Assembly: GCF_034522235.1 (NCBI RefSeq)
Contig: NZ_JAXHLN010000003.1
Span: 620,001-684,000 of the forward strand
Source: Thiohalophilus sp.
GTDB taxonomy: Bacteria > Pseudomonadota > Gammaproteobacteria > UBA6429 > Thiohalophilaceae
Length of the DNA: 64,000 nt
Reading direction: 5' to 3'
The notes beneath the pieces were generated by a model. That model was not told the origin of the DNA. It was given only the letters and a program-made list of their open reading frames with translations, and ran no database searches. This document shows, in pieces, positions 11,711 to 64,000 of this stretch. The first letter of the stretch is position 1, and each line of letters begins with the position of its first letter. Made by a program: the position numbers and the translations under genes.

Positions 11711-13314
11711 AACTGATGAAAGGATTACTGATTCTTGGGTTGGGGCTGGCACTGGCCGCCTGTGGTGACGACAAGACCAGCTCGGACACCGGTTCCGAAG
11801 CAACGGGACAACAGGAAACCGCGCTGGAGCATGCAAAGAAGCACACCGATCCCAACTATGTCTGTCCCATGCACCCGCAGATTATTCGGGATGAGCCGGG
11901 CAACTGTCCGATCTGTGGCATGGATCTGGTCGAAAAAGAGCAGGATGACGCGAGTGAGGACGAAGGCGAGAAGGAGATCCTCTATTACCGCCATCCACAC
12001 AATCCCTCGATTACCTCCAAAGAGCCGAAAAAAGACGAGATGGGGATGGACTTTGTCCCGGTCTATGATGATGGCGGCGGCAGCTCGGTGAAAATATCCC
12101 CGGCCGTGATCAACAACATGGGTGTGCGTACCGCCAAAGCCGAGCGCGATACCCTGTGGCGCAAGATCGATACGGTCGGCTATGTCGCCTATGACGAAAG
12201 CCTGATCTCGCATATTCATCTGCGAACGCAGGGCTGGATCGAAAAGCTCTATGTCGAAGCCGAGGGCGAACGAGTCGAAAAAGGTCAGCTGCTTTACGAG
12301 GTATATGCCCCGGAGCTGGTCAATGCGCAGGAAGAGTATGTTCAGGCCCTGGACAGCGGGCGTAAATCGCTGATTCGCGCCTCCCGGGAACGGCTGGTGG
12401 CGCTGGGCATCGGTAACGAACAAATTGACAAGCTGCGCCAGACCCGTCAGGTGAGCCAGTATGTCAAAGGTTACGCCACGCAGGACGGTATTGTAGCCAA
12501 CCTTGGTGTGCGTGAAGGCATGTATGTCAAGCCACAGGCCGAGGTGATGGCGCTGGCGGATCTCTCTTCTGTCTGGATTCAGGCCGAAGTGTTCGAAAGC
12601 CAGGTGGACTGGGTCGAAGCGGGCCAGCCGGCCGATGTCAGCCTCTCCTATTTCCCCGGTCGCACCTGGGAAGGCGAAGTGGAATACGTCTACCCGAGCC
12701 TTAATCCCAAAACCCGCACCCTGCGGGTACGCCTGCGCTTTGACAATCCCGATCAAACCCTCAAGCCCAACATGTTCGCCGATATCAGTATTTACGGCGG
12801 ACCGAAGCGGGATACCGTGGTGATTCCACAAGAGGCCTTGATCCGCGGCGGAGACGAAGATCGGGTGATCCTGGCACTGGAGGAAGGTCGCTTCCGGCCC
12901 CGGACCGTGGTCGCCGGCATGGCCTCGGGTGACCGGGTCGAGATCAAACATGGGCTGAAAGCCGGTGAGCGGGTTGTAACCTCGGGACAGTTCCTGATCG
13001 ATTCGGAAGCCAGCCTCAAGGCCAGCATCAAACGCATGACATCACCGGCAGACGAGACTGCCGCAGAAAGTACATCAGCCTCGTCAACGATCACCGGCAC
13101 CGGCGTGTTGCATGAGCTGGAGCCGGAAGCAAACAGCGTCAACATGAGCCACGATCCGATTCCCGCAATCGACTGGCCGGCAATGACCATGTCGTTCAGG
13201 GTCAAACCCGATGTCGACCTCGAACCATTCAGCCCCGATGACAAAGTCGAATTCGATCTCGAAAAAGGCGACGACGGCTATGTCATCAAGGCCATGCGTA
13301 AGCGAAAAGAGTAA
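11707..13314 (+). CDS. cusB: CusB-type membrane-fusion lipoprotein fused to a CusF domain
   Basis: Periplasmic adaptor of a Cu(I)/Ag(I) RND pump, 535 residues. The lipobox LAAC places the lipid-anchored Cys at residue 19. Two heavy-metal-binding motifs follow: YVCPMHPQI...CPICGMDL at about 50-80 and a degenerate [10 protein letters not shown]...[13 protein letters not shown] copy. The adaptor's barrel-sandwich and beta-barrel domains make up the middle. The final 70 residues form a CusF domain ([20 protein letters not shown]), with the His, Trp and Met copper ligands. In E. coli CusF is a separate chaperone; here it is fused to the adaptor. Translation overlaps the upstream gene by 4 nt. Confidence 0.92.
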
Positions 13315-13319
13315 AGAAT

Positions 13320-13796
13320 AACCACCAAGACACAAAGACACCAAGGAGAAAAAAATGGAATTTATAAAGGTATCGTCTGAGGTTGACAAGATTGCGAAGG
13401 AAGTTGTTGATAGTGCATTTCATGTCCACAAATCGCTTGGTCCGGGGTTGCTCGAATCAGTTTATGAAGCATGTATGTTGCACGAGCTTCAAAAACGCGG
13501 AATGAAAGTGGAAAGCCAGAAAACTATCTCGGTTATCTATGATGGATTAAAAATAGATGCAGGGTTACGGCTTGATTTGCTTGTTGAAGATGAGGTTGTA
13601 GTTGAATTGAAGTCTGTAGAGACAATTTTGCCAGTTCATGACTCGCAACTATTGAGTTATCTGAAGCTGGCGAATAAACGGCTTGGTCTGCTGATCAATT
13701 TCAATGTGCCTGTCATAAAAGATGGGATCAGAAGAAGAATATTATAACTGTCTTGGTGCCTTGGTGCCTTGGTGCCTTGGCGTCTTGGTGGTGAGA
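13320..13796. mobile_element. family C inverted-repeat element carrying a GxxExxY gene
   Basis: The left arm (13320-13350) holds AACCACCAAGACACAAAGAC-type units and the right arm (13746-13796) tandem CTTGGTGC units ending TTGGTGGTGAG. This is the same polarity as empty family C hairpins such as 28659-28726. The left arm also supplies the AAGGAG ribosome-binding site of the internal gene. The element splits cusB from cusA. Mobility is inferred from architecture only. Confidence 0.6.
13355..13747 (+). CDS. GxxExxY protein, PD-(D/E)XK-like
   Basis: A 130-residue GxxExxY-family protein. The name motif is present in GPGLLESVYE (residues 32-41), and a nuclease-like D...ExK core appears in RLDLLVEDEVVVELKS, followed by the conserved QLLSYL and RLGLLINF segments. 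The fold is related to PD-(D/E)XK nucleases; biochemical function is unknown. It sits between cusB and cusA, has lower GC than both, and lies exactly between the two arms of a repeat element. A second member lies between trpE and trpG at 33893. It is probably cargo or a mobility factor of the repeat element and not a copper gene. Confidence 0.85.
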   Translation: MEFIKVSSEVDKIAKEVVDSAFHVHKSLGPGLLESVYEACMLHELQKRGMKVESQKTISVIYDGLKIDAGLRLDLLVEDEVVVELKSVETILPVHDSQLLSYLKLANKRLGLLINFNVPVIKDGIRRRIL

Positions 13797-13812: not shown

Positions 13813-16800
13813 ATGATTGAACGAATTATCGACTGGTCGCTGCGCAACCGTTTTCTGGTGTTGTTGCTGACGGTGATCCTGTGCGGCTGGGGCTGGTTCG
13901 CGGTGAAGAACACGCCGCTGGATGCGATTCCGGATCTGTCGGATGTGCAGGTGATTATCAAGACCACCTATCCGGGCCAGGCGCCGCGGGTGGTGGAGGA
14001 TCAGGTGACCTATCCGTTGACCACGGCGATGCTCTCCGTGCCGGGGGCGAAGACGGTGCGGGGTTATTCCATGTTCGGGGATTCGTTTGTGTATATCCTG
14101 TTCGAGGACGGGACCGATCCCTACTGGGCCCGATCGCGGGTACTGGAATATCTGAGTCAGGTCGAGGCACGATTACCCGAACAGGCGCGTCCGGCACTGG
14201 GGCCCGATGCCACCGGGGTGGGCTGGATCTATGAATATGCCCTGGTGGATCGCACCGGCCAGCATGATCTGTCGCAGCTGCGTTCTCTGCAGGACTGGTT
14301 TTTGAAGTATGAGCTGCAGACGGTTTCCGGCGTGTCGGAAGTGGCGACGGTCGGCGGCATGGTCAAGCAGTACCAGGTGGTCCTCGATCCGGACAAACTG
14401 CGCGCCTACGATCTGCCACTGGCGAAAGTCCGCCAGGCCATCCGGCAGGGCAACCAGGAGGCCGGCGGCTCGGTGATCGAGATGGCCGAGGCTGAATACA
14501 TGGTGCGGGCCACCGGCTACATCCAGAGCAAGGACGATCTCAAAAACATTCCCCTGGGTGTCAGTGAGCAGGGCACGCCGTTGTTGCTGGGGGATATAGC
14601 CGAAATCCGGCTGGGACCGCAGATGCGCCGCGGTATCGCGGAGCTGAACGGCGAGGGCGAGGTCGCCGGCGGTATTGTGGTGATGCGTTACGGCGAGAAC
14701 GCCCTCAAGACCATCGAGGGCGTGAAGCACAAACTGGCACAGCTGCAAAACGGCCTGCCCGACGGCGTGGAGATCGTCGAGACCTATGATCGCTCCGCCC
14801 TGATCAACCGGGCGGTCGATAACCTGACCGGTAAATTGCTGGAAGAGTTTTTGATCGTCGCGCTGGTCTGTCTGGTGTTTCTGTTTCACCTGCGCTCGGC
14901 GCTGGTCGCCATCATCAGTCTGCCGATCGGGATCCTCGGGGCGTTTATCGTCATGTATCACCAGGGCATCAATGCCAACATTATGTCCCTGGGCGGGATC
15001 GCCATCGCCATTGGCGCCATGGTCGATGCGGCAATCGTGATGATCGAAAACGTGCACAAACACATCGAACGCGAGCCGCTGACTAACGAGAATCGCTGGC
15101 GCATTATCAGCGAGGCGACCCGCGAAGTCGGTCCGGCCCTGTTCTTCTCGCTGTTGATTATCACCCTCAGCTTTTTGCCGGTGTTCACACTCGAGGCGCA
15201 GGAAGGGCGCATGTTCGCGCCGCTGGCCTTTACCAAGACCTATGCCATGGCCGCGGCGGCCGGGTTGTCGATCACCCTGGTCCCGGTATTGATGGGCTAC
15301 TTCATTCGCGGCCACATCCGCCCGGAGGAGAAAAACCCGGTCAACCGGATTTTGATCAAGGCGTATCAGCCTTTTATCCATACCGTACTGAACAAGCCCA
15401 AAAGCGTGCTCGGTATTGCCCTGCTGGTGGTGTTGATGACGATCTGGCCGGTAATGAACATCGGTTCGGAGTTCATGCCGGATCTGGACGAAGGGGATCT
15501 GATGTACATGCCGACGACCTTCCCCGGCCTGTCGATCGGCAAGGCGCAGGAGCTGCTGCAGCAGACCGATAAACTGATCATGAGCGTACCGGAGGTCGAG
15601 CGGGTCTTCGGCAAGATCGGCCGGGCCGAAACCGCCACCGATCCCGCACCTTTGACCATGATCGAAACCACCATCCAGCTCAAGCCGCGCAGTGAGTGGC
15701 GCGAGGGCATGACTACCGAAAAACTCAAACAGGAGTTGAACGATCGGGTGCAATTCCCCGGTCTGACCAACTCCTGGGTGATGCCGATCAAAACCCGGAT
15801 CGACATGCTGGCGACCGGCATCAAGACGCCGGTGGGCGTCAAGGTCTCGGGGCCGGATTTGAACGTGATCCAGGAGATCGGCCAACAGATCGAAGAGGCG
15901 GTCATGCAGGTACCGGGCACCGTCTCGGCCTATTCGGAACGCACCGTCGGCGGCCGTTATGTGACGGTGGATATCGATCGACGGGCGGCTTCTCGGGTCG
16001 GTCTGAACATCGCCGATGTGCAAAATGTAGTGAGTACAGCCATAGGCGGTATGCAGGTCGACCAGACCGTGGAAGGGCTGGAACGTTATCCGATCAATTT
16101 ACGTTATCCGCGGGAGGTTCGCGAATCGGTCGACAAGCTGCGCGATCTGCCGGTGATTACCAAGCAGGGCGCCCGGATTCCGTTGTCCGAAGTGGCGGAT
16201 ATTCGTGTCGAGACGGGTCCGGCCATGATCAAAAGCGAAAATGCGCGGCCCAACGGCTGGACCTTCGTCGATATCAAGGATCGGGACCTGGGGTCCTACG
16301 TGGAAGAGGCGCAACGGGTGGTTAACCGGCAGATCGATTTACCGGCCGGCTACTCCATTGCCTGGTCCGGGCAGTATGAATACATGGTGCGGGCCAAGGA
16401 GCGCCTGAAGGTCGTGGTGCCCCTGACGCTGGTGATTATTGTGCTGCTGTTGTATCTCAACTTCCGCAATATTATCGAGGTGCTGATCATCATGGGCACG
16501 CTGCCGCTGGCCCTGGTCGGGGGGTACTGGCTGCTTTACCTGCTCGGCTACAACATGTCGGTCGCCGTCGGCGTGGGCTTTATCGCCCTGGCCGGCGTGG
16601 CCGTGGAGATCGGGGTGGTGATGCTGGTCTATCTGAATCAGGCCTATCGCAACCAGATAGCCAATAAAGAACGCGTGCACGTGCCGAACCTGGAAGAACT
16701 CAAGCAGGCCGTCATCGAGGGTGCCCTGTTGCGGGTGCGCCCCATTATCATGACCGTGGCGGCCATTACCGGGGGGCTGTTGCCGATCATGCTGGGCGGC

Positions 16801-18080: not shown

Positions 18081-18130
18081 CTAGTTGCTAGTTGCTAGTT
18101 GCTAGTTGCTAGTTGCTGGTGACTGGTTAC
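18081..18130. repeat. heptamer tandem repeat CTAGTTG x5
   Basis: Five perfect CTAGTTG units (18081-18115) are followed by two degenerate ones (CTGGTGA, CTGGTTA), starting 4 bp past the DUF302 stop. The unit resembles the arms around the S23 gene at 48257-48694. Confidence 0.9.
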
Positions 18131-18144
18131 CAGAGAACAGAGGC

Positions 18145-18490
18145 GTAGGTCAGGTTGCGTGCAGCGCTACCTGAGATTCTGCGTATCGGCAGGGGTGTCA
18201 CGCAGGCTAATGCCAGCGTGACCTACAGGATTAGCCAGAGTATAAGGTATGCACAAATTTGGAACAGTCTTGTAGGTCACGTTGGCGTAGCCTACGTGAT
18301 TTGAAGAGTAGGGTATCGACGTTGAATTCGGAGAATAGCCTCAGTCTTGTAGGTCACGTTGGCGTAGCCTACGTGACTTGAAGAGCAGGGTATCGGCGTT
18401 GAATTCGAAGAATAGTCTTGTAGGTCACGTTGGCGTAGCCTACGTGACTTGAAGAGCAGAGTATCGACGTTGAATTCAGGGGATAGCATC
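18145..18490. repeat. GTAG-headed REP-like hairpins, including three tandem copies of 71-77 bp
   Basis: Three direct copies start at 18272, 18349 and 18420, each headed by GTAGGTCACGTTGGCGTAG and forming a hairpin TCACGT-T-GGC-GTA-GCC-T-ACGTGA. A diverged pair of facing copies spans 18145-18226. No ORF is present. The GTAG head is a known hallmark of REP sequences handled by RAYT transposases. Confidence 0.8.
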
Positions 18491-18547
18491 AGCACTCAGC
18501 ACTCAGCACTCAGCACTCCGCACCTAGTACTCAGCACTCAGCACTAA
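18488..18547. repeat. heptamer tandem repeat CACTCAG
   Basis: About eight ACTCAGC/ACTCCGC-type heptamers in a row just before the tonB stop. A similar short array lies at 58522-58548. Confidence 0.85.
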
Positions 18548-18560
18548 CCATGCCTGATTA

Positions 18561-19283
18561 TTAATTTCTCAGCCGGTACTCCATCGCGTACTGAAATTCC
18601 CTGCTGGATAAAGATGCCGGCGGTGGGGGAAAAGGTTGGGCTTTGCGGGCGGCCTGGATGGCTGCTTCGCAAAACAGGTCATTACCTTCAAGACATTCGA
18701 TATCTTGTAATTGACCGTCATCGGCGACCGTGATGCGGATTGAAGCCCGACCCTCCAGCTGGCGCCGGCGCGCCATAAAAGGATAGTGCTGGTACTGTTC
18801 CAGATGGCGCAGCAAACGGCTCTGGTAGGATTCATCGGCTGATATCCCGCTGCGGACACCCCCGCTCTGCATTCGTTGCTGCTCCACCTCTTGCGGCAAC
18901 GCCTCTTTAAACGGTTTTATCGCTTTTTCCTCTGACGGTTCATTAGTTTGTGTTTTTACGGGCCTGTTCGGCTTTTTGACGGGTTTCGGCTTCGGTTCAG
19001 GTTCAGGTTCAGGTTCAGGTTCAGGTTCAGGTTCAGGTTCGGATTTCGGCGCCTTCTCGGGTGGTTTTTTCGGTAACGGTTCGGATGTTGTCCGGTTTTC
19101 TGTTGCCGGACTCAGAGTGATGCTCAGTCGCGTTTCATTATCTGTCGGATAGTGTCCCGGCGAGAGCGAGCCGGACTGAATAATTGCCACAACATGCAGA
19201 CCGATTGAGACCAGCAGCGTCAGTTTGAAGACAGGCGTTAGTTGCGTCATGAAAAGCAGGTCAGTCCGGTGGGTTTTTCGCAT
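18561..19283 (-). CDS. tonB: TonB-like energy transducer
   Basis: A 240-residue TonB-type protein. After a short N-terminal stretch there is one transmembrane anchor (FKLTLLVSIGLHVVAII), a periplasmic Glu-Pro/Lys-Pro linker, and a C-terminal TonB domain (RHLEQYQHYPFMARRRQLEG, then VADDGQLQDI). It couples the proton-motive force to outer-membrane receptors. The eight EP dipeptides come from an exact GGTTCA hexanucleotide array at 18994-19041, a slippage-prone tract that stays in frame. It is divergent from the OprC-like receptor gene, its probable partner. Confidence 0.9.
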   Translation of the reverse strand: MRKTHRTDLLFMTQLTPVFKLTLLVSIGLHVVAIIQSGSLSPGHYPTDNETRLSITLSPATENRTTSEPLPKKPPEKAPKSEPEPEPEPEPEPEPEPKPKPVKKPNRPVKTQTNEPSEEKAIKPFKEALPQEVEQQRMQSGGVRSGISADESYQSRLLRHLEQYQHYPFMARRRQLEGRASIRITVADDGQLQDIECLEGNDLFCEAAIQAARKAQPFPPPPASLSSREFQYAMEYRLRN

Positions 19284-22051: not shown

Positions 22052-22199
22052 AACGCGGAGGACGCAGAGGCGCAAAGACGCAGAGAAATGAATTTTGAAT
22101 TCTAAATCAGTGGAACTGTATTTTAGATAGAAAAAGTTGCCAGGAAGATCAAAAAACATGATCTCCGCGCCTCTGCGGCTCCGCGTCCTCTGCGTTTTT
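22052..22199. repeat. empty inverted-repeat element, family B
   Basis: The left arm (AACGCGGAGGACGCAGAGGC and on) and the right arm (CTCCGCGCCTCTGCGG ... CCTCTGCGTTTTT) face each other around a roughly 70-bp AT-rich core without an ORF. The right arm ends in a T-run. Confidence 0.9.
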
Positions 22200-28618: not shown

Positions 28619-29106
28619 AATAGCTTGCGCGCATTTGAGAAATAAAAGCAAACCACCAAGACGCCAAGACACGAAGAAAATAAATATTTGAACACTTCGT
28701 GTCTTGGTGTCTTCGTGGTTAATATCTTTCACCGTACCGCACGGCCTGTCGCGCCAGAGGCGCTCCTACAATAGATGTTTTTCCTCGGAACTCGTAACTG
28801 CCTCCGCAGGACGCGCGGACCCGGGTAGGCCCGATATAGCGAAGCGGTATCGGGCATTTTTCGGGTTGCCGGACACCGCTATGCTATGTCCGGCCTACCA
28901 ACTGTGAAATAAAAGCAAACCACGAAGACACCAAGACACGAAGAAGAATATTGTTTAAACCTTTGTGTCCTCTGTGGTGAGACAAGCATGGCTGGTCCTG
29001 AACACTATTGTGAAATAAAACAACTGCAACACATAAAATCTCGAAGGATTTAATATTGATTTTACTTCGTGTCTTGGTGTCTTGGTGTCTTCGTGGTTAA
29101 GATTTT
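28619..29106. repeat. repeat-filled gap: two family C hairpins, one BIME-like REP pair, one C arm
   Basis: No gene is seen. Family C hairpins (ACCACCAAGACGCC facing CTTGGTGTCTTCGTGG) occupy 28659-28726 and 28917-28982, and a right arm alone 29066-29101. Between them, 28825-28898 is a REP pair: GTAGGCCCGATA/TATCGGGC and GCCGGACA/TGTCCGGCCTAC, headed by GTAG at both ends. Confidence 0.85.
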
Positions 29107-31400: not shown

Positions 31401-31518
31401 TAACGCAGAGTTCGCAGAGGCGCAGAGGCGCAGAGAAATTAATTGTTTTGTGCTGATTCTAAAGCATATTATTCTATTCTCCTCCGCGTCTCTGCGACTC
31501 CGCGCCCTCTGCGTTTTT
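31401..31518. repeat. empty family B inverted repeat between rpe and gph
   Basis: TAACGCAGAGTTCGCAGAGG-type left arm and CTCCGCGTCTCTGCGACTCC-type right arm with a terminal CTCTGCGTTTTT, about 50 bp of AT-rich core, no ORF. The right end lies 15 bp before the gph ATG. Confidence 0.9.
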
Positions 31519-33831: not shown

Positions 33832-34309
33832 TTAACGCGGAGGGCGCGGAGGCGCGGAGACGCGGAGGAAATAAAATGCAAAGGAGATGCAAATGCACGA
33901 AAATGAGATTGCAGGAGAAATAATCGGTGCGGCGATTGAAGTACATCGTGTACTGGGCCCCGGGTTACTGGAATCGGCGTATCATGAATGTCTGAAACAT
34001 GAATTTGGGATTCGAGGTATCGGATATGAGTCAGAGGTTCCAATTCCCTTGAAATACAAGGGTATCGTGGTTGATCAGGTTTATAGAGCTGACTTTATGG
34101 TGGATAACAAGGTGATTATCGAGCTGAAATCGCTGGAGGAAATTAAAGATATACATAAATCTCAGGTTCTGACCTATCTAAGGCTGACAGGCAGAAAATT
34201 GGGATTACTTATTAATTTCAGGACGTCATTGATTAAGAACGGTATATATCGTGTTGCAAATAAATTGTAGTTCTCCGCGTCTCCGCGACTCCGCGTCCTC
34301 TGCGTTTTT
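33832..34309. mobile_element. family B inverted-repeat element carrying a GxxExxY gene
   Basis: The left arm (33832-33870: TTAACGCGGAGGGCGCGGAG and on) and the right arm (34271-34309: TTCTCCGCGTCTCCGCGACT ... CTCTGCGTTTTT) have the same polarity and ends as empty family B hairpins at 22052 and 31401. Here a 378-bp gene fills the core. Mobility is inferred; no target duplication could be identified with certainty. Confidence 0.65.
33893..34270 (+). CDS. GxxExxY protein, PD-(D/E)XK-like
   Basis: This 125-residue protein is clearly homologous to the one at 13355: GPGLLESAYHECL (GxxExxY), a D...ExK pair in YRADFMVDNKVIIELKS, and VLTYLRLTGRKLGLLINF. AAGGAG at 33881-33886 selects the ATG at 33893 over one two codons earlier. 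It interrupts the trpE-trpG junction and has lower GC than the trp genes. The enclosing arms are of family B, while those of the other copy are family C, so the gene is found with different repeat families. Function unknown; a nuclease role in element mobility is a hypothesis. Confidence 0.85.
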   Translation: MHENEIAGEIIGAAIEVHRVLGPGLLESAYHECLKHEFGIRGIGYESEVPIPLKYKGIVVDQVYRADFMVDNKVIIELKSLEEIKDIHKSQVLTYLRLTGRKLGLLINFRTSLIKNGIYRVANKL

Positions 34310-34912: not shown

Positions 34913-34918
34913 GTTTTA

Positions 34919-35093
34919 GCGCAGAGACGTTTATGCCCGTTGTTTGGGTGCAGAGATATAATTTTGAATGTTGAATTTTAAATTATGAATTACGGCCATG
35001 GCTTTTAATTCAAAATTCAAAACTTAAAATTCAACATTAAGCGTTACTTCGCGTCCTCTGCACCCAAACAACGGGCATAAACGCCTCTGCGGT
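34919..35093. repeat. nested inverted repeat (B outer, D inner) between trpG and trpD
   Basis: Outer arms share 28 identical bases (34928-34955 against the complement of 35056-35083), which begin CGTTTATGCCCGTTGTTTGG and are flanked by GCAGAG units. Inside lies a family D element with TTGAATGTTGAATTT facing AAAATTCAACATTAAG. No ORF. Confidence 0.95.
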
Positions 35094-35121
35094 AAATATC
35101 AATTAAAAACGGGATATTGAA

Positions 35122-41808: not shown

Positions 41809-42180
41809 CAGGGCCGAGGGACGAGTAACGAGTGACGAGGAAAAATCCTCACCACCAAGACACGAAGACACCAAGAATTAAAAACAAACTTTGTGTCTTG
41901 ATGGTTTGTTTCTTCGGAGCGTCTCCGGTGCGATATACCGTGTAGCTCGATAGACCGTCGCGGCTGAAAGCCCATCCCACAATGGCAAAACAGGCCCTTA
42001 TTTTGTGGGAGGCGATTACATCGGCGACCGATCATGCGGGATAGACAAACCCGTCGCGGCGAAGCCGCTCCTGGCGACCTACGGACGCGGTTACGAGGTA
42101 CGAGGAAAAACGCTCATCACCAGGGCACTAGGACACAAAGTTTTTATTCTTGGTGTCTTCGTGTCTTGGTGGTTTATCTC
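41809..42180. repeat. composite repeat block between speD and coq7
   Basis: A family A left arm (CAGGGCCGAGGGACGAG) starts at the base after the speD stop. A family C hairpin (41850-41912), a REP-like segment with GCTCCTGGCGACCTACG, a second A-type arm (42091-42108) and another C hairpin (42115-42177) follow. No ORF. Confidence 0.85.
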
Positions 42181-45449: not shown

Positions 45450-46108
45450 AAAGAAAGTTGGCAGTTGGCAGTTGGCAGTTGGTAGATGGCAGATGGCAGA
45501 TGGCAGATGGCAGATGGCAGGATGATGGTCCTTGTGGGAGCGCCCCGCGGGCGCGATTGTCGAAGCCGACACTGTCGTAGCTGGCACCGTCGCGGTCGAA
45601 GTCACTCCCGGCATCCTGCCTCCCGTGACAGAGCCCACCCCGTGAGCAACGCGAGTGTTTTGGGTGTTAGCACTTCCCTGTGCGTCGCCCGCTCCCACGT
45701 CGCCCTTCGGGCGCAGTTACGAGGTACGAGGGACGAGGAAAACCACCTTGCGCAGAAAGCTGTAGGAGCGCCCCGCGGGCGCGATTGTCGAAGTCGACAC
45801 TGTCGTAGCTGGCACCGTCGCGGTCGAAGTCACTCCCGGCATCCTGCCTCCCGTGACATTAGAAAAATGCCCGATACCGCTGCGTTATATCGGGCCTACC
45901 TGGCTGCTTAACGGCAGAGTTGTTGATCGGTTAAAGATATAGAAAGAAAGTTGGCAGTCGGAAGTCGTGAATATTGAACCACGAAGGCGCGAAGACACGA
46001 AGGATAATGTTTACTTCGAGGCTTCGTGACTTCGTGGTGAAGGTTTTCCTCGTCACTCGTCACTCGTCACTCGGCCCTCGTCACTGCCCGAAGGGACAAG
46101 GATATTTA
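45450..46108. repeat. repeat block with duplicated ferredoxin 3' end
   Basis: Contents in order: heptamers of GTTGGCA and GATGGCA type (45457-45522); two 98-bp near-identical REP blocks (45532-45630 and 45759-45857) headed GTGGGAGCGCC and GTAGGAGCGCC; a copy of the ferredoxin 3' end (45904-45958); a family C hairpin (45978-46043); and an A right arm (46047-46085). No gene is seen. Confidence 0.85.
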
Positions 46109-48256: not shown

Positions 48257-48694
48257 CGCTAGTGGCTAGGTACTAGAGGCTAGGAACGACATAAGGAGAG
48301 AGTGCATGGAAGCACTTGAGAATCTTGACGTATGGAAACGGGCTTGCCGGTTAAGTGTGGAGCTGTACAAGGCGTTCACCAACTCAAAAGAGTATGGTTT
48401 CCGGGATCAGATTACCCGTTCAGCGCTTTCCATTCCCTCGAATATTGCCGAAGGCTTTGAGCGGGACTCGCCCAGGAGCAAGGTCCAGTATCTGAAAGTG
48501 GCCAAAGGCTCCTGCGGCGAACTCTGGACCCAGCTGCTAATCGGCCGGGAAGCCGGCTTTCTCGACAGTGAGCGCAGCAAACAGCTCGAAAGAGAAGCAA
48601 AGGAAATATCGAAAATGCTCTACGGCCTGATTCGCCATTATCAAAACAGGTCGTAGTCAAAATGAGCTAGCCACTAGTCCCTAGCGGCTAGCCC
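48257..48694. mobile_element. inverted-repeat element carrying an S23-type gene
   Basis: The left arm CGCTAGTGGCTAGGTACTAG (from 48257) and right arm GCTAGCCACTAGTCCCTAG (from 48665) consist of CTAGNNN heptamers in inverted order and enclose one gene. The right end is 11 bp before tRNA-Gln. The arrangement parallels the GxxExxY elements at 13320 and 33832. Confidence 0.6.
48306..48656 (+). CDS. four-helix-bundle (S23/IVP-family) protein
   Basis: A 116-residue protein of the S23 family first known from intervening sequences in 23S rRNA genes; Avd of diversity-generating retroelements has the same fold. Typical segments are LDVWKRACRLSVELYKAF, YGFRDQITRSALSIPSNIAEGFER and LWTQLLIGREAGFLD. AAGGAGAG precedes the ATG. 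It is not within an rRNA gene but between rpsI and tRNA-Gln, enclosed in an inverted heptamer element. The biochemical role is unknown; nucleic-acid binding is likely from its basic surface and family. Confidence 0.9.
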   Translation: MEALENLDVWKRACRLSVELYKAFTNSKEYGFRDQITRSALSIPSNIAEGFERDSPRSKVQYLKVAKGSCGELWTQLLIGREAGFLDSERSKQLEREAKEISKMLYGLIRHYQNRS

Positions 48695-50649: not shown

Positions 50650-50828
50650 AGGACAATTTTTGCGTATTCTCTACAAGTTCTGCCCCATGAGTGTCCCGTA
50701 ATTTATATGTGAATACATAAAGCCATGAATATCAATAATTTACGGATTATTTTTTATGATTAATCATCCGCTAGTCTGAGTTCGACAAAATCGACGGGCA
50801 TACCTCGTCCCTCGTCCCTCGTAACTCG

Positions 50829-51134
50829 TCACTTGGCCCTGCCCGAAGGGCGATGGGGTTTGGCGGTCATATCCACGCCCATGGCGCGCATGACCGCGAG
50901 CAGGGTTTTTAATGTCGGGTTGCCGGTTTCGCTGAAGCTGCGGTAGAGCTGTTCCCTTGACAGCCCCGTTTCCCGGGCCAGTTCGGTCATGCCTTTGGCG
51001 CGGGCGACAACCCCCAGGGATTGGGCGATATAACCGGCATCACCGGTTTCCAGCGCATCCGCCATGAAGGCGGCAATGGTTTCGTCGCTATCAAGATGCT
51101 CGGCCGGATCGAAATCGGTAAAGTTCTCAGCCAT
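50829..51134 (-). CDS. HTH antitoxin (addiction module antidote)
   Basis: A 101-residue DNA-binding antitoxin of the HigA-like addiction-module antidote type: FDPAEHLDSDETIAAFMADA, then a helix-turn-helix (GMTELARETGLSREQLYRSFSE). The ATG at 51134 lies within the end of the toxin gene (8-nt overlap). The C-terminal GRAK and the stop are encoded by the CAGGGCC end of a family A repeat arm, so the original C-terminus was probably different. Confidence 0.88.
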   Translation of the reverse strand: MAENFTDFDPAEHLDSDETIAAFMADALETGDAGYIAQSLGVVARAKGMTELARETGLSREQLYRSFSETGNPTLKTLLAVMRAMGVDMTAKPHRPSGRAK

Positions 51135-51429
51135 TTTGTTTTCTCCACTCATCGAGTATCTCTCTGGCGATTTCAATATCCCGTTTTTGTGTGCCCTTAT
51201 CGCCGCCGCACAGTAAAATGATCAGCGTGTCCCCCCGCTGGTGAAAATAGACCCGATAACCCGGCCCATAGTGAATCCGCAGCTCGTTGAGCCCCTGGCC
51301 CAGCGGAGTTACATCCGAGGGCAAGCCCTCCATCAGCCGGTGAATACGAGCCAGGATGATCCCTTTGCCCTTTTCATCCTTGAGCCGCTTGATCCAGCGG
51401 TTGAATCGCTGTGATGAAATCCGTTTCAT
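51127..51429 (-). CDS. RelE/ParE-superfamily toxin
   Basis: A 100-residue toxin of the HigB-like, phage Gp49-related group: RWIKRLKDEKGKGIILARIH, LNELRIHYGPGYRVYFHQRG and ILLCGGDKGTQKRDIEIARE. Such proteins usually cleave mRNA on the ribosome. It is upstream of its antitoxin, the reverse of most type II systems but normal for HigBA. Confidence 0.9.
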   Translation of the reverse strand: MKRISSQRFNRWIKRLKDEKGKGIILARIHRLMEGLPSDVTPLGQGLNELRIHYGPGYRVYFHQRGDTLIILLCGGDKGTQKRDIEIAREILDEWRKQNG

Positions 51430-52084
51430 ACGATGACTGTAGTTTATAAATTACAGCAAGGCAAGATATTGGGTTCAATGGCAAAGAAGACGCCGATCGT
51501 AGAACAGGGCCGAGTGACGAGGTACGAGGTACGAGTGACGAGGAAAACCGCCTTGCGCCGAAGGTTGTAGGAGCGCCTCCGGCGCCCTCCGGGCGCAGTG
51601 ACGAGGGACGAGTAACGAGGGACGAGTAAAAACACCGTATAGCAGCGCCTTTGGCGCGACAGGCCGTGCAAGCCGGATAGGCCTGGCTGTCGCGGCTGAA
51701 AGCCCCTCCCACGGCGTCCTTCGGGCGCAGTAACGAGGGACGAGTGACGAGGGACGAGGAAAAACACCTTATTCCGAAGGTTGTAGGAGCGCCTCCGGCG
51801 CGATAGACCTCGCCACGCGGCAGGGCCCATCGCGGCGCAGCCGCTCCCGGCGCCCCCGGGGCGCAGTACCGAGGGACGAGGAGCGAGTGACGAGGGGGCT
51901 GCCAACTGCGAACTGCCTACTGCCAACTTTTCAGCCGCGGCGCAGCCGCGCCTACCGATCCAGGGGATCGGACCCCGGGTTTTGATCTTGCTCGTCCTTC
52001 CCGAAGGGGAGGGAGGCGAAGGGCGGGCCTTCCCGTCGACAAAACCATAGAAAAGGTGATATTATCCAGTCTGTCTTAACGAGC
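51430..52084. repeat. long composite A and REP repeat block
   Basis: Repeated A-type left arms (51508, 51602, 51734, 51873) alternate with REP segments headed GTAGGAGCGCC or CGCTCCCGGCG, with a TGCCAAC-type remnant at 51898-51927. No ORF. The last 100 bp before the porin duplication show nothing recognisable. Confidence 0.8.
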
Positions 52085-55097: not shown

Positions 55098-56557
55098 GAC
55101 AGTTTTGTCTTAATAATAACAATATCAAGCAGTACTTCGGCGGGGCCTTCGGGCCCCGTTTTTTATGCGCGCCAATAAACAAAGCGGGTAGGCCCGATAT
55201 AGCAACGCGGTATCGGGCATTTTTCGGGATGCCGGACACCGCCTCATAACAGGGGCGAGTGACGAGGGCCGAGTGACGAGGAAATCCCGCTTGGCAGGGC
55301 AGGGTGCGTTCCACGCACCATTATACTGCTAACTGCTAACTGCTAACTGCTAACTGCCAACTGCCAACTGCCAACTTTCAATTACCAACTGATGCCTGAT
55401 TACCCGTTATGGGGCCTGTTTCTCAGACATCGGTGATTCGGGGGTGATGGTGCGTATAACATATCCTGCCGACCTGACAGGCGGGCATGGTTTACCTCGT
55501 CACTCGTCCCTCGTCACTGCCCGGAGGGCCTGCTGCTGAGTCTGATATTGATCGGGATCGGCAAGACAGCCCGCTATGCGGTGGTGGTGTTTTTGTTTAT
55601 GTAGCAGCTGAACAGAATCCTGTGGGAGCGCCCCACGGGCGCGACTGTCGATGCTGGCACTGTTCGCGGTCGAAGCCCGCTCCCACAAAAAAGGGCGAGG
55701 GGCGATTTTACGAGAAGAACCTTCACCACGAAGCCACGAAGTAAACCAATAATTCTTCGTGTCTTCGGGACTTCGTGGTTCAAATAGATTCCTCTTAGTA
55801 TGTAGGCCAGACTGAGCACCCTTCGGGCATAAACTCCGCGGTGTCCGGCATCCCGAAAAATGCCCGATACCGCGTTGCTATATCGGGCCTACCTGCTGGC
55901 AAAGTTGGTAGATTACAGAGTGCAGTTTGCCGTCGCGGAGAATGGCAGGTAGCGCCTGCGCGCAACCTGCCCTGTCGCGGTCAAAGCCCGCTCCTACATG
56001 CATCGGTGATTTGGGGGAGATGGTGCGTGGGACGCACTCTAGGTCTAGAAAAAAGGGCCGAGTTACGAGTGACGAGGGACGAGGAAAACAAAATCCTTAC
56101 CTCCGTCATTCCGGGCAAGCCGGAGGCGCGACCCGGAATCCAGCTGTCAATAACAGGGCCGAGGGACGAGGAAAACCTTCACCACGAAGTCACGAAGGCT
56201 CGAAGCAAACCAACAATTCTTCGTGTCTTCGTGGTTCAAATGTATTGCCGGCGATTCGGGGGTGATGGTGCGTAGGACGCACCCTACGGAACTTGAGGCA
56301 ATTCGCTATCCGCTCATTGCCAGGGACGAGGTACAAGGAAAAACAACATTTTTTGACCAGAGTGCCGGTAGGAGCGGCTGCGCCGCGATAGAGCCTGTTT
56401 GCTCGCACAGCCTGTCGCGCCAGAGGCGCTCCTGCCATCCGGCGGAGGCTAAACGGGTTCTTCCTCGTCACTCGGCCCTCGTAACTCGTCACTGTTACGG
56501 GCAGGCTGTTAGTTAACGGTCGTTGACAGACTGTAAACGTTCGATTACACTTGTCCC
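55098..56557. repeat. 1.4-kb gene-free block after porin 2
   Basis: It begins with the duplicated downstream region of porin 1 (terminator at 55141-55164, REP pair, four ACTGCTA plus three ACTGCCA heptamers at 55327-55375). It continues with REP segments (55620-55688, 55839-55892, 55975-55997), family C hairpins (55722-55783, 56177-56237), A arms (56055, 56159, 56458-56495), a CATTCCGGGCAAGCCGG repeat (56106) and GGTGCGTAGGACGCACC dyads (56023, 56265). No credible ORF. Confidence 0.85.
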
Positions 56558-57220: not shown

Positions 57221-57410
57221 TTCACCACGAAGACACGAAGACACGAAGACACGAAGACACGAAGACACGAAGACACGAAGACACGAAGGCTCGAAGTAAA
57301 ACCAATAATCCTTCGTGACTTCGCGCCTTCGTGGTTGGCTCTTACAATCCCGGGAGCCAGGCCCCGATGCGGGACTGGATTCCGGCATTCGCCGGAATGA
57401 CAATCTACTC
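57221..57410. repeat. octamer array and family C hairpin plus GGATTCCGGC dyad
   Basis: CACGAAGA octamers repeat about eight times on the left (57225-57292), facing CTTCGTGACTTCGCGCC on the right. The tail 57370-57408 carries GGACTGGATTCCGGCATTCG, a dyad also found at 58457. Confidence 0.85.
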
Positions 57411-57421
57411 AGCACTCAGCA

Positions 57422-57712
57422 TTACCACTGACCGGGAATGCGGCGAGCCAGATGAAAAACGCGCAGTATTTCGATCTGGTGTAGTCGCGGGCGCACCCGG
57501 TAGGGGATGAGGTAGCGGGTATTGGGAACAAGCAGTTCGCGGGTGGCGGGAACCCGTCCTGCCCGGCCCAGTGCAGGGTTGTTTGCCAGCAGGGCGACAC
57601 TGTGCTCGATTCGCTGGACAACGAGCCGGGCGGCCTCGGGATTGTCTTTGGCGATATAGGCGGCTTCCTGTTCCAGATTGCTCAACGCTGTCCGTAGCCA
57701 TTTTATCCGCAT
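57422..57712 (-). CDS. RelE/ParE-family toxin
   Basis: A 96-residue ParE-type toxin: LRTALSNLEQEAAYIAKDNP, ALGRAGRVPATRELLVPNTR and LIPYRVRPRLHQIEILRVFH. Unlike the two HigB-like pairs nearby, here the antitoxin gene comes first, 3 nt upstream. Members act on ribosome-bound mRNA or gyrase; which one cannot be told. Confidence 0.9.
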   Translation of the reverse strand: MRIKWLRTALSNLEQEAAYIAKDNPEAARLVVQRIEHSVALLANNPALGRAGRVPATRELLVPNTRYLIPYRVRPRLHQIEILRVFHLARRIPGQW

Positions 57713-57715
57713 GGA

Positions 57716-57952
57716 TTACCCCAGCTTGTCGAAAACCGCCCTGACTTCTTCATCTATGGCAAAGTCGCCCGCGTCGGCCTCGTTGATCGCCGCCTCGGTT
57801 TCGCGGATTTGCCACTCGTTCAGTTCGATAAAATCCCGAACGGCTTCGCTGGCGAGGTAGGATTTACTCCGGTGAGTGGCCTCGGCGAGTTTGTCCAGCC
57901 GCGACTTGAGCTCGGCATCCAGGCGGATGGTCATGGTAGTGGACTGTGACAT
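57716..57952 (-). CDS. CopG/RHH-type antitoxin
   Basis: A 78-residue ribbon-helix-helix protein: MTIRLDAELKSRLDKLAEAT at the N-terminus and an acidic tail (EADAGDFAIDEEVRAVFDKLG) that would bind the toxin. The ATG at 57952 follows GGGGGCA; the longer frame reads through repeats and is rejected. Confidence 0.9.
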   Translation of the reverse strand: MSQSTTMTIRLDAELKSRLDKLAEATHRSKSYLASEAVRDFIELNEWQIRETEAAINEADAGDFAIDEEVRAVFDKLG

Positions 57953-58716
57953 ATTGCCCCCTTGAGGGATGTTCGGATGTACACATTGTAACACAAAAAA
58001 CACAGAGCCAGGGTGCGAGGGACGAGTGACGAGGAAAATCTTCACCACGAAGACACGAAGGCTCGAAGTAAATCAATAATCCTTCGTGTCTTCGCGTCTT
58101 CGTGGTTGGCTTTTTCAATCCCGCGGGCGCGAATCTCGAAGCGGGTGCTGTCGCGGTCGAAGCCCGCTCCTACAAAAAAAGGCGAGGGGCGTTTTACGAG
58201 AAGAACCTTCACCACGAAGACACGAAGTAAACCAAAAATCCTTCGTGTCTTCGCGTCTTCGTGGTTGGCTTTTTCAATCCCGCGGGCGCGAATCTCGAAG
58301 CGGGTGCTGTCGCGGTCGAAGCCCGCTCCTACAAAAAAAGGCGAGGGGCGTTTTACGAGAAGAACCTTCACCACGAAGACACGAAGTAAATCAATAATCC
58401 TTCGTGACTTCGCGCCTTCGTGGTTGGCTTTTTCAATCCCGGAGGGCGGTGCCCCGGTTCGGGACTGGATTCCGGCCCCGGCTTGAAGCATGCCGGGGCA
58501 GGCTGTGCCGGAATGACAATCTACTCAGAACTCAGAACTCAGCACTCGAGACACTGCCAACTGCTCACTGAAGACTGCCAACTTTGTTTATTCATAACCC
58601 CCTGAATTCAAGGGCATTATGCCCGGATTGCCGGTTACCCGCCTGTCGGTCGCATGTTAGAATAGCCTTCTTTCGCGGCCTGTCCGCTCTCTCAAAACCC
58701 CTTGAAAATCAAATAT
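57953..58716. repeat. repeat block with three family C hairpins and REP segments
   Basis: Family C hairpins lie at 58041-58110, 58207-58268 and 58368-58430. The last two, with the REP segments between (GGGCGCGAATCTCGAAGCGG ... GCTCCTAC), form direct repeats with a period of about 163 bp. A GGATTCCGGC dyad (58457-58517) and ACTCAGA/ACTGCCA-type heptamers end the block. No ORF. Confidence 0.85.
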
Positions 58717-62589: not shown

Positions 62590-62598
62590 AACAGGCTT

Positions 62599-63115
62599 GT
62601 AGGCGCGGGCTTCGACCGCGACCGGTGTTTGTTCGGGATTCGCGCCCGCGGGGCGCTCCTACCATGCCAGATGCCGGTGTTCGTTGTTGTGTAGGCGCGG
62701 GCTTTGACCGCGACCGGTGTTTGTTCGGGATTCGCGCCCGCGGGGCGCTCCTACGGGGCTGTGTCGGTGACCGGTTTTATGTAGGAGCGGGCTTCGACCG
62801 CGACCGGTGTTTGTTCGGGATTCGCGCCCGCGGGGCGCTCCTACGGGGCTGTGCCGGTGACCGGTTTTATGTAGGAGCGGGCTTTGACCGCGACCGGTGT
62901 TTGTTCGAGATTCGCGCCCGCGGGGCGCTCCTACGGGGCTGTGCCGGTGACCGGTTTTATGTAGGCGCGGGCTTTGACCGCGACCGGTCGTTTGTTCGGG
63001 ATTCGCGCCCGCGGGGCGCTCCTACGGGGCTGTGCCGGTGACCGGTTTTATGTAGGAGCGGGCTTCGACCGCGACCGGTGTTTGTTCGGGATTCGCGCCC
63101 GCGGGGCGCTCCTGC
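62599..63115. repeat. REP array of six units upstream of the RAYT gene
   Basis: Units start at 62599, 62691, 62781, 62871, 62961 and 63052 (period 90-92 bp). Each begins GTAGGAGCGGGCTTCGACCG or a close variant and ends GGGGCGCTCCTAC, forming an end-to-end dyad. Two linker types alternate: one with GTGCCGGTGACCGGTTTTAT, one with CCAGATGCCGGTGTTCG. Confidence 0.95.
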
Positions 63116-63188
63116 CGCGCCATGGCGATCCTTTACACAAATGCCTGTTTTACGGCACAGTCATGCCAGAACACACGGAGGTGTTTTC

Positions 63189-63647
63189 ATGACAACCCAC
63201 CATTTTTCCGGACATCGTCTGCGTATTGGCCGCCTGTCGGAAACCGGGCGGATTTACCTCATCACCACGGTCACTGAACAACGCCAGCCCATCTTTCAGA
63301 ATTTCTTGCTGGGTCGGCTGGTGGTACAGGCACTGAAAGATAATCAAAGCAATACGACGACACTGGCCTATGTTGTCATGCCCGATCATCTTCACTGGGT
63401 CATGCAGTTAGGTGACAGGCATGATCTCAGTACGGTGGTTTCGAGCATCAAGTCGAACAGCGCCCGTTGGATAAACAGGCATCTGAACCGTTCGGGACGA
63501 TTATGGCAAAAGGGATACCACGACCATGCCTTGCGGCGTGAAGACGATTTACGGCAAGTGGCTCGCTATGTCATCGCCAATCCCTTGCGGGCAGGTCTGG
63601 TCCGGCAAATCGGAGATTATCCGCTATGGGATGCGATATGGTTGTGA
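63189..63647 (+). CDS. REP-associated tyrosine transposase (RAYT)
   Basis: A 152-residue Y1 transposase of the RAYT group. It has the metal-binding MPDHLHWVM (H67, H69) and a catalytic tyrosine, probably Y110 in LWQKGYHDHALR, followed by ARYVIANPLRAGLV. RAYTs cut and join single-stranded REP DNA. GGAGG precedes the ATG. Its gene lies in the middle of a GTAG-headed REP array, six units before and at least four after, its expected substrate. Confidence 0.93.
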   Translation: MTTHHFSGHRLRIGRLSETGRIYLITTVTEQRQPIFQNFLLGRLVVQALKDNQSNTTTLAYVVMPDHLHWVMQLGDRHDLSTVVSSIKSNSARWINRHLNRSGRLWQKGYHDHALRREDDLRQVARYVIANPLRAGLVRQIGDYPLWDAIWL

Positions 63648-63665
63648 AATGGAATCCCACACCCG

Positions 63666-64000
63666 GTAGGCGCGGGCTTTGACCGCGACCGGTCGTTTGT
63701 TCGGGATTCGCGCCCGCGGGGCGCTCCTACCACGCCAGATGCCGGTGTTCGTTGTTGTGTAGGAGCGGGCTTCGACCGCGACCGGTGTTTGTTCGGGATT
63801 CGCGCCCGCGGGGCGCTCCTACCACGCCAGATGCCGGTATTCGTTGTTGTGTAGGAGCGGGCTTTGACCGCGACCGGTGTTTGTTCGGGATTCGCGCCCG
63901 CGGGGCGCTCCTACTCCTACCACGCCAGATGCCGGTGTTCGTTGTTGTGTAGGAGCGGGCTTTGACCGCGACCGGTGTTTGTTCGGGATTCGCGCCCGCG
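63666..64000. repeat. REP array downstream of the RAYT gene, cut by the window end
   Basis: Units start at 63666, 63759, 63851 and 63949 with the same head and tail as those upstream and the CCAGATGCCGG linker. The last unit is incomplete. Confidence 0.95.

Follow-up and report, generated by a model that had tools for sequence, protein, structure and literature searches.

GxxExxY genes of bacteria and archaea usually lie between two facing arrays of short tandem repeats, and we propose that the inverted arrays (a CRCNRAG core plus 1–3 nt per unit) and the gene that they enclose form one selfish hairpin-bounded element. Among the readings weighed below, this one fits best and is the most economical, and we give it about an even chance (roughly 0.5) of being right. 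It draws on the unit structure of the arrays, their fixed polarity and conserved core, the joint presence or absence of gene and arms, and the lateral transfer of the gene, as well as on the co-occurrence of genes and gene-free arrays, arm covariation without a G.U bias, purifying selection, and an intact active site of the Cas4/RecB type in the predicted protein.

Gene-bearing elements in the window and its genome

The window is the whole stretch of 64,000 nucleotides that was analyzed, C3:620001-684000 of a 3.06 Mb genome (G000). A cusB-like gene stops at 13314 and a cusA-like gene begins at 13813; in the gap that they leave, the forward strand of the window carries a left arm at 13321-13346 (ACCACCAAGACACAAAGACACCAAGG, built of ~8-bp units CACCAAGA/CACAAAGA/CACCAAGG), a GxxExxY gene of 130 aa at 13355-13747, and a right arm at 13750-13792 whose CTTGGTGN units are inverted relative to the left arm. 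An earlier note on this DNA had described the gene as lying exactly between facing arms with the ribosome-binding site supplied by the left one, and both statements are confirmed: The arms enclose the gene, and its ribosome-binding site AAGGAG is the end of the left arm, a short distance before the ATG. The right array pairs best with the left arm over 13767-13792 and ends in GGT just 5' of the ribosome-binding site of the cusA-like gene. Profile matches (TIGR04256, 148 bits at a cut-off of 35; PF13366, about 144 bits at a cut-off of 22) and invariant residues assign the gene to a PD-(D/E)XK family.

Two further gene-bearing elements on the forward strand had been overlooked. In the trpE/trpG gap, a second GxxExxY gene (33893-34270, recognized by profile match and by its place in the trpE|trpG clade of our tree) lies between a left arm of CGCGGAGG units at 33834-33867 and its inverted counterpart at 34273-34306, so that the element spans 33834-34306. 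The gap between rpsI and a tRNA-Gln gene holds a gene of a different family, the four-helix IVP/S23 family (48306-48656; TIGR02436, PF05635), enclosed by arms of 7-bp units (CTAGNNN in the left arm at 48258-48283; inverted repeat at 48667-48692). Across the genome, repeat arrays flank all 3 GxxExxY genes and all 4 full-length IVP genes. By the scoring applied, they form clean inverted pairs at some of these copies and not at others: In the third GxxExxY copy, the units are CACGAAnnn of 9–10 bp and the inverted-arm score is low. The rpsI|tRNA-Gln gap is occupied by IVP/S23 elements in at least 10 genomes of the family (48258-48692 plus loci L046, L047, L049-L051, L053, L054, L056, and L057), and their 7-bp arm words largely differ.

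Two gene families with two repeat periods across phyla

A single scan of 84,980 species genomes yielded 80 GxxExxY loci that come from over 20 phyla, with the archaeal Methanosarcinales among them. Inverted arms with a score of at least 13 were found at 55 of these 80 genes compared to 4 of the 173 ORFs taken from these loci as controls, and those 4 comprise 2 GxxExxY genes, 1 spurious ORF between arms, and 1 case apparently due to chance. GxxExxY genes are thus enclosed more often than other genes, a comparison that the earlier note had proposed. In seven of the genomes, where 42 GxxExxY genes were scored (a few of them also among the 80 loci), inverted arms were likewise detected at 32, and about 24–31% of GxxExxY genes are armless at the threshold used. 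Each arm is made of three or four units with the core CRCNRAG (C[AG]CN[AG][AG]G across phyla) and a spacer of 1–3 nt, and the units are spaced by 8 bp more frequently than by 9 bp and by 9 bp more frequently than by 10 bp. The outer ends of both arms are conserved and TTAACC-like, and some paralogues have arms with the variant CRCNRAT (e.g., CACGAATT or CGCAGATT).

Among 30 phylum-diverse loci of IVP genes, 20 have inverted arms at the same score, mostly with period 7 and with a unit sequence that varies freely. The two families are separated by this period, since the strongest array had period 7 at none of 111 GxxExxY loci, whereas period 7 or 14 was seen at 34 of 42 scoring IVP loci. At one locus (L058, genome G024), an IVP gene with inverted arms of 7-bp units lies inside a 23S rRNA gene, apparently at helix 45, and the known intervening sequences (IVS) of rRNA therefore belong to the same class. 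Those IVS have been described as a small S23/IVP ORF in terminal inverted repeats with a patchy distribution, and a selfish or mobile nature has been proposed for them (PMC4990558). The same layout recurs here for IVP genes inside and outside rRNA, including the gene at 48306-48656, and L058 is such an IVS. GxxExxY elements, in contrast, encode a protein of an unrelated PD-(D/E)XK fold instead of IVP/S23, have a unit of 8–10 bp with a fixed core, sit between protein genes, and give no indication of excision from RNA. The unit of gene and arms that the earlier note had described for GxxExxY thus holds across phyla, but its scope was too narrow given that IVP/S23 genes share the layout with 7-bp units. 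Plasmids carry few GxxExxY copies (6 in 72,556 records), and for that reason they provided no recent insertion pair.

Gene-free hairpins

The four empty hairpins listed in the earlier note are real and were placed at 28653-28720, 41851-41913 (with an additional right arm at 42141-42173), 45978-46038, and 55725-55779. Inverted-repeat scans and inspection of inverted arms added further gene-free hairpins of 8-bp units at 22052-22196 (75-bp loop), 28919-28979 (with a left outer flank, AAATAAAAGCAAACCAC, in common with the hairpin at 28653), 31402-31515 (46-bp loop), and 56183-56233, as well as three that lie on a 159-bp tandem duplication at 58046-58422. A gene-free hairpin of 7-bp units (AATTTTG/AATTCAA) at 34967-35038 is nested in a non-periodic inverted repeat at 34915-35096.

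Genome-wide array counts were obtained by pattern searches and from sampled stretches of G000 and the same-genus genome G038 (464 kb in all). In these stretches, neighboring arms less than 60 bp apart were arranged left-then-right 18 times and right-then-left not once, which bears out the shared polarity that had been noticed for the empty elements. The 164 kb around the window contain 54 inverted repeats with a score of at least 14, mostly with periodic arms of 7 or 8 bp, compared to 2 in a block-shuffled control, and such repeats therefore exceed chance; the corresponding numbers for G038 are 49 and 1. Gene-free hairpins have their arms in common and mostly not their loops, a comparison that says little for short loops, and where two loops do match, they appear to have an unrelated repeat family in common. 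Orthologous intergenic sites of the two genomes often carry different or nested arm classes, and no clean target duplication was found on aligning them at polymorphic hairpin sites.

Searches with a strict pattern of three units gave 228 hits in G000 (vs. 3 GxxExxY genes), 221 in G038, and 194 in G005, compared to none in 22 of 40 genomes of the family. Arrays and genes co-occur: Pattern hits are present in 16 of 22 family genomes with the gene and 2 of 18 without it (p = 1e-4, not corrected for kinship), and across 199 genomes of the phylum in 20 of 30 with and 11 of 169 without the gene (Fisher p = 9e-13, likewise not corrected for kinship). Genome G232 combines 118 pattern hits with no GxxExxY match.

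The window also contains several other repeats and genes. Another inverted repeat family (GGTAGGCCCGATATAGC..GGTATCGGGCA) occurs inside or beside periodic hairpins at 28824-28899 and 55183-55897, and a RelE/ParE-like toxin gene and a CopG/RHH-like antitoxin gene (50803-51543 and 57224-58106) lie between neighboring arrays of reversed polarity or between hairpins. Dense tandem repeats fill 18081-18545 and 18994-19040 (CTAGTTG x5.3, a 77-bp unit x3, AGCACTC x8.9, GGTTCA x7.8), and 62598-64000 is an array of ~90-bp tandem units with many GTAGGAGCG..GCGCTCCTAC palindromes that is possibly REP-like with a GTAG tag and partly satellite-like.

History at orthologous sites

The trpE|trpG gap of family genomes contains gene and arms in 17 cases (two with broken genes), is clean in 14 (0–27 nt without repeats), and holds other short sequence in 3, one of which has an arm-like remnant. 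At cusB|cusA, 4 genomes carry the element (one of them broken) and 26 have neither element nor arms. Relatives have either both or neither at these two sites, which implies that gene and arms come and go as one unit. For gene-less sites the earlier note had considered an empty hairpin or no repeat at all, and a hairpin-only state was not found at either site among the relatives examined.

Phylogeny places the GxxExxY genes from trpE|trpG in one clade (support 96/93), and this single clade points to one old insertion that was then inherited and in places lost. At cusB|cusA, the genes of G000 and G018 group together; the gene at exactly the same position in same-genus G038, however, groups with Verrucomicrobiota (99/96), and unrelated genes at an identical position imply that insertions occurred independently or that the cassette was replaced. 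Among the proteobacterial genes there is also an archaeal GxxExxY gene, and lateral movement of the gene is supported by these sequence comparisons. Purifying selection is evident from a dN/dS of 0.09 for GxxExxY and 0.07 for the IVP gene. GxxExxY paralogues within one genome are at most 73% identical at the DNA level, so that full copies within a genome are old, and no near-identical full copies at different sites that would betray recent transposition were seen in the genomes compared. A locus of another genome (L280, G079:C14:57001-68000) has three diverged GxxExxY elements within ~6 kb, in the same orientation and 72–73% identical.

A Cas4/RecB/Hjc-like protein and the main rival

Over 93 diverse GxxExxY sequences, G29, G31, E34, Y37, D74, E84, K86, Q98, and N115 are invariant. 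An AlphaFold2 model (mean pLDDT 96.4) matches Cas4 SSO0001 best (Z 9.8, rmsd 3.3 over 98 residues), followed by other PD-(D/E)XK nucleases and the Holliday-junction resolvase Hjc (Z about 6.9). Foldseek gave no confident structural match (best E 0.012), no relative turned up among solved structures when these were searched by sequence, and the PADLOC Cas4 profile matches weakly (E = 0.003). A previous survey reported one gene that was called cas4 by one tool and GxxExxY by another (PMC8934634). Since the D...ExK core on an alpha-beta fold is present in the model with D74, E84, K86, and Q98, it is plausible that GxxExxY is a PD-(D/E)XK nuclease of the Cas4/RecB/Hjc kind with an intact active site, and the role of candidate nuclease that the earlier note had assigned to it gains plausibility from the invariant residues and the predicted fold. 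With Cas4, RecB, lambda exonuclease, and Hjc the protein would share this fold and the full set of D, ExK, and Q(xxxY); unlike them, it is a stand-alone protein of about 125–130 aa encoded inside inverted arrays. Neighbors read for the copy at 13355-13747 are the cusB-like and cusA-like genes, and no helicase or CRISPR partner was noted among them. The IVP protein is homologous to Avd, an accessory protein of diversity-generating retroelements (PMC10053308).

Such an active site, along with the weak Cas4 match, would also suit a nuclease of genome maintenance or defense that serves the host, to which the arrays would be a chromosomal target, an operator, or a self-mark retained because the host profits from it, much like domesticated RAYT/REP systems. 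This is the main rival to a selfish element. The long vertical persistence at trpE|trpG, the low dN/dS of 0.09, and gene-free arrays by the hundreds per genome would all be in keeping with it, but presence is patchy with frequent loss and broken copies, unrelated genes occupy one site within one genus, and the gene itself bears the arms, which together make service to the host unlikely.

Arm complementarity and the remaining alternatives

The arms of trpE|trpG orthologues differ in sequence between genomes while left and right stay matched, with a complementarity score of 18.4 for a gene's own arms vs. 12.0 for permuted ones (p = 2e-4). Own arms also exceed permuted arms across phyla and for IVP elements (p = 2e-4), including those at rpsI|tRNA-Gln. 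Mismatches in the arms of 81 GxxExxY elements comprise 78 G.T and 97 A.C pairs (p = 0.17 for the difference), a comparison for which the tRNA control contained too few tRNAs for calibration. A stem in sense RNA would favor G.U, yet G.T is not in excess, so that complementarity is better explained at the level of DNA; to judge from these mismatch counts, arm pairing seems to be kept there and not in the mRNA.

Covariation without a G.U bias is also what template switching would produce without any protein, and the arms might have arisen passively through tandem slippage and quasi-palindrome correction during replication, with genes merely residing between them. Gene-free arrays are plentiful enough for this. 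Nonetheless, we regard a passive origin as quite improbable: The CRCNRAG core is the same around GxxExxY genes of bacteria and archaea, the unit measures 8–10 bp in one family and 7 bp in the other, arrays co-occur with the gene, and only about 1% of ordinary genes have arms.

Pairing of the arms in the transcript, for translation control, transcript stability, or excision by RNase III as in the 23S IVS, is disfavored by the mismatch counts and strikes us as very improbable. Insertions inside operons, the ribosome-binding site in the left arm, and the IVP copy in 23S rRNA would fit such a role, as would the Coxiella IVS that is excised by RNase III (PMC4990558), but the arms do not tolerate G.U over A.C as a structural RNA would, none of them has a match in Rfam, and gene-free hairpins exist. 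Least probable of all, and likewise disfavored by the tests, is that older arrays capture or receive a gene at each site, because no hairpin-only state turned up at cusB|cusA or trpE|trpG in the relatives examined and arms differ together with the gene, even if gene-free arrays are common and the arm-bounded genes that same-genus genomes carry at one identical position in cusB|cusA are unrelated.

A proposed selfish hairpin-bounded element and its relation to known systems

For the selfish element as preferred here, we envisage that the GxxExxY protein would bind or cut DNA at the arms, as a single-strand hairpin or extruded cruciform, and that repair and re-insertion could carry elements, gene-free arrays in trans among them, into gaps between genes. 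Template switching between the arms and slippage of units might then homogenize the arms and keep them complementary, and the IVP/S23 genes with 7-bp arms, to which the intervening sequences of 23S rRNA belong, would form a parallel class built on the same plan. What counts against this reading is that 11 of 169 phylum genomes lacking the gene have arrays nonetheless, one of them with 118 hits. The armless share of GxxExxY genes, the Foldseek result, the mostly different loops of gene-free hairpins, and the missing hairpin-only state at the two orthologous sites weigh in the same direction.

REP sequences and REPINs are short palindromic extragenic repeats with hundreds of copies, accompanied by few genes for a processing enzyme (RAYT, TnpA_REP) that are flanked by the same repeats. 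The arrays described here resemble that system in their many short extragenic repeats and few enzyme genes with the same flanks. GxxExxY, however, is not a Y1 transposase (the gene at 13355-13747 belongs to PF13366 and has no transposase domain), the arms are arrays of 3–4 units and not single palindromes, and the association of gene and array spans phyla and extends to archaea.

The earlier note had also likened full and empty forms to an autonomous element and its MITE-like derivatives. Gene-bearing and gene-free forms do have the same inverted ends, as in pairs of transposons and MITEs, and the gene-free ones are numerous and co-occur with the gene, but there is no transposase, the gene-free forms have arms and not loops in common, and neither recent full copies nor a hairpin-only state at the two orthologous sites was seen. 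A simple transposon is further opposed by full copies of at most 73% identity and by the fact that no target-site duplication was read, the empty sites being short variable intergenic gaps that align poorly. As for the suggestion of a mobile system, lateral movement of the gene and the joint presence or absence of gene and arms speak for it, while no transposition event or target duplication was seen in the data compared.

STRR heptamers and TAACTGA repeats are intergenic 7-bp direct repeats of obscure origin that are suspected to be mobile (PMC4679880). Unlike them, the arrays studied here come as inverted pairs that enclose either a gene or a short loop, and the TAACTGA report, in the portion searched, draws no link to IVP genes (PMC4679880). 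An ORF in terminal inverted repeats (23S rRNA IVS, PMC4990558) and an enzyme accompanied by many palindromes (RAYT/REPIN) are known. In the open-access literature, no description of the arms around GxxExxY was found by family name or arm sequence. The GxxExxY element, the wide distribution of its core unit, the split between families with 7-bp and 8–10-bp units, and the link of gene-free arrays to genes thus appear to be new in the searchable literature.

More tentatively, these elements may represent a new class of prokaryotic selfish elements with arms of short words and two branches, a Cas4/Hjc-like nuclease with 8–10-bp CRCNRAG units and IVP/S23 with 7-bp units. Such a class would produce and sustain gene-free hairpins by the hundreds in each genome, and it could account for the long-known 7- and 8-bp repeats between genes as well as for the origin of IVS. 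Proteins of the GxxExxY and IVP/S23 families are very widespread and labeled "hypothetical," and the intergenic repeats of 7 and 8 bp, noted long ago, have lacked an agent. With each family tied to its own repeat period in bacteria and archaea, both puzzles gain a testable agent, and the IVS of rRNA turn into one instance of a more general element. If it is true that the nuclease keeps the arms complementary, DNA would here have an unusual means of spreading and of shaping the regions between genes.
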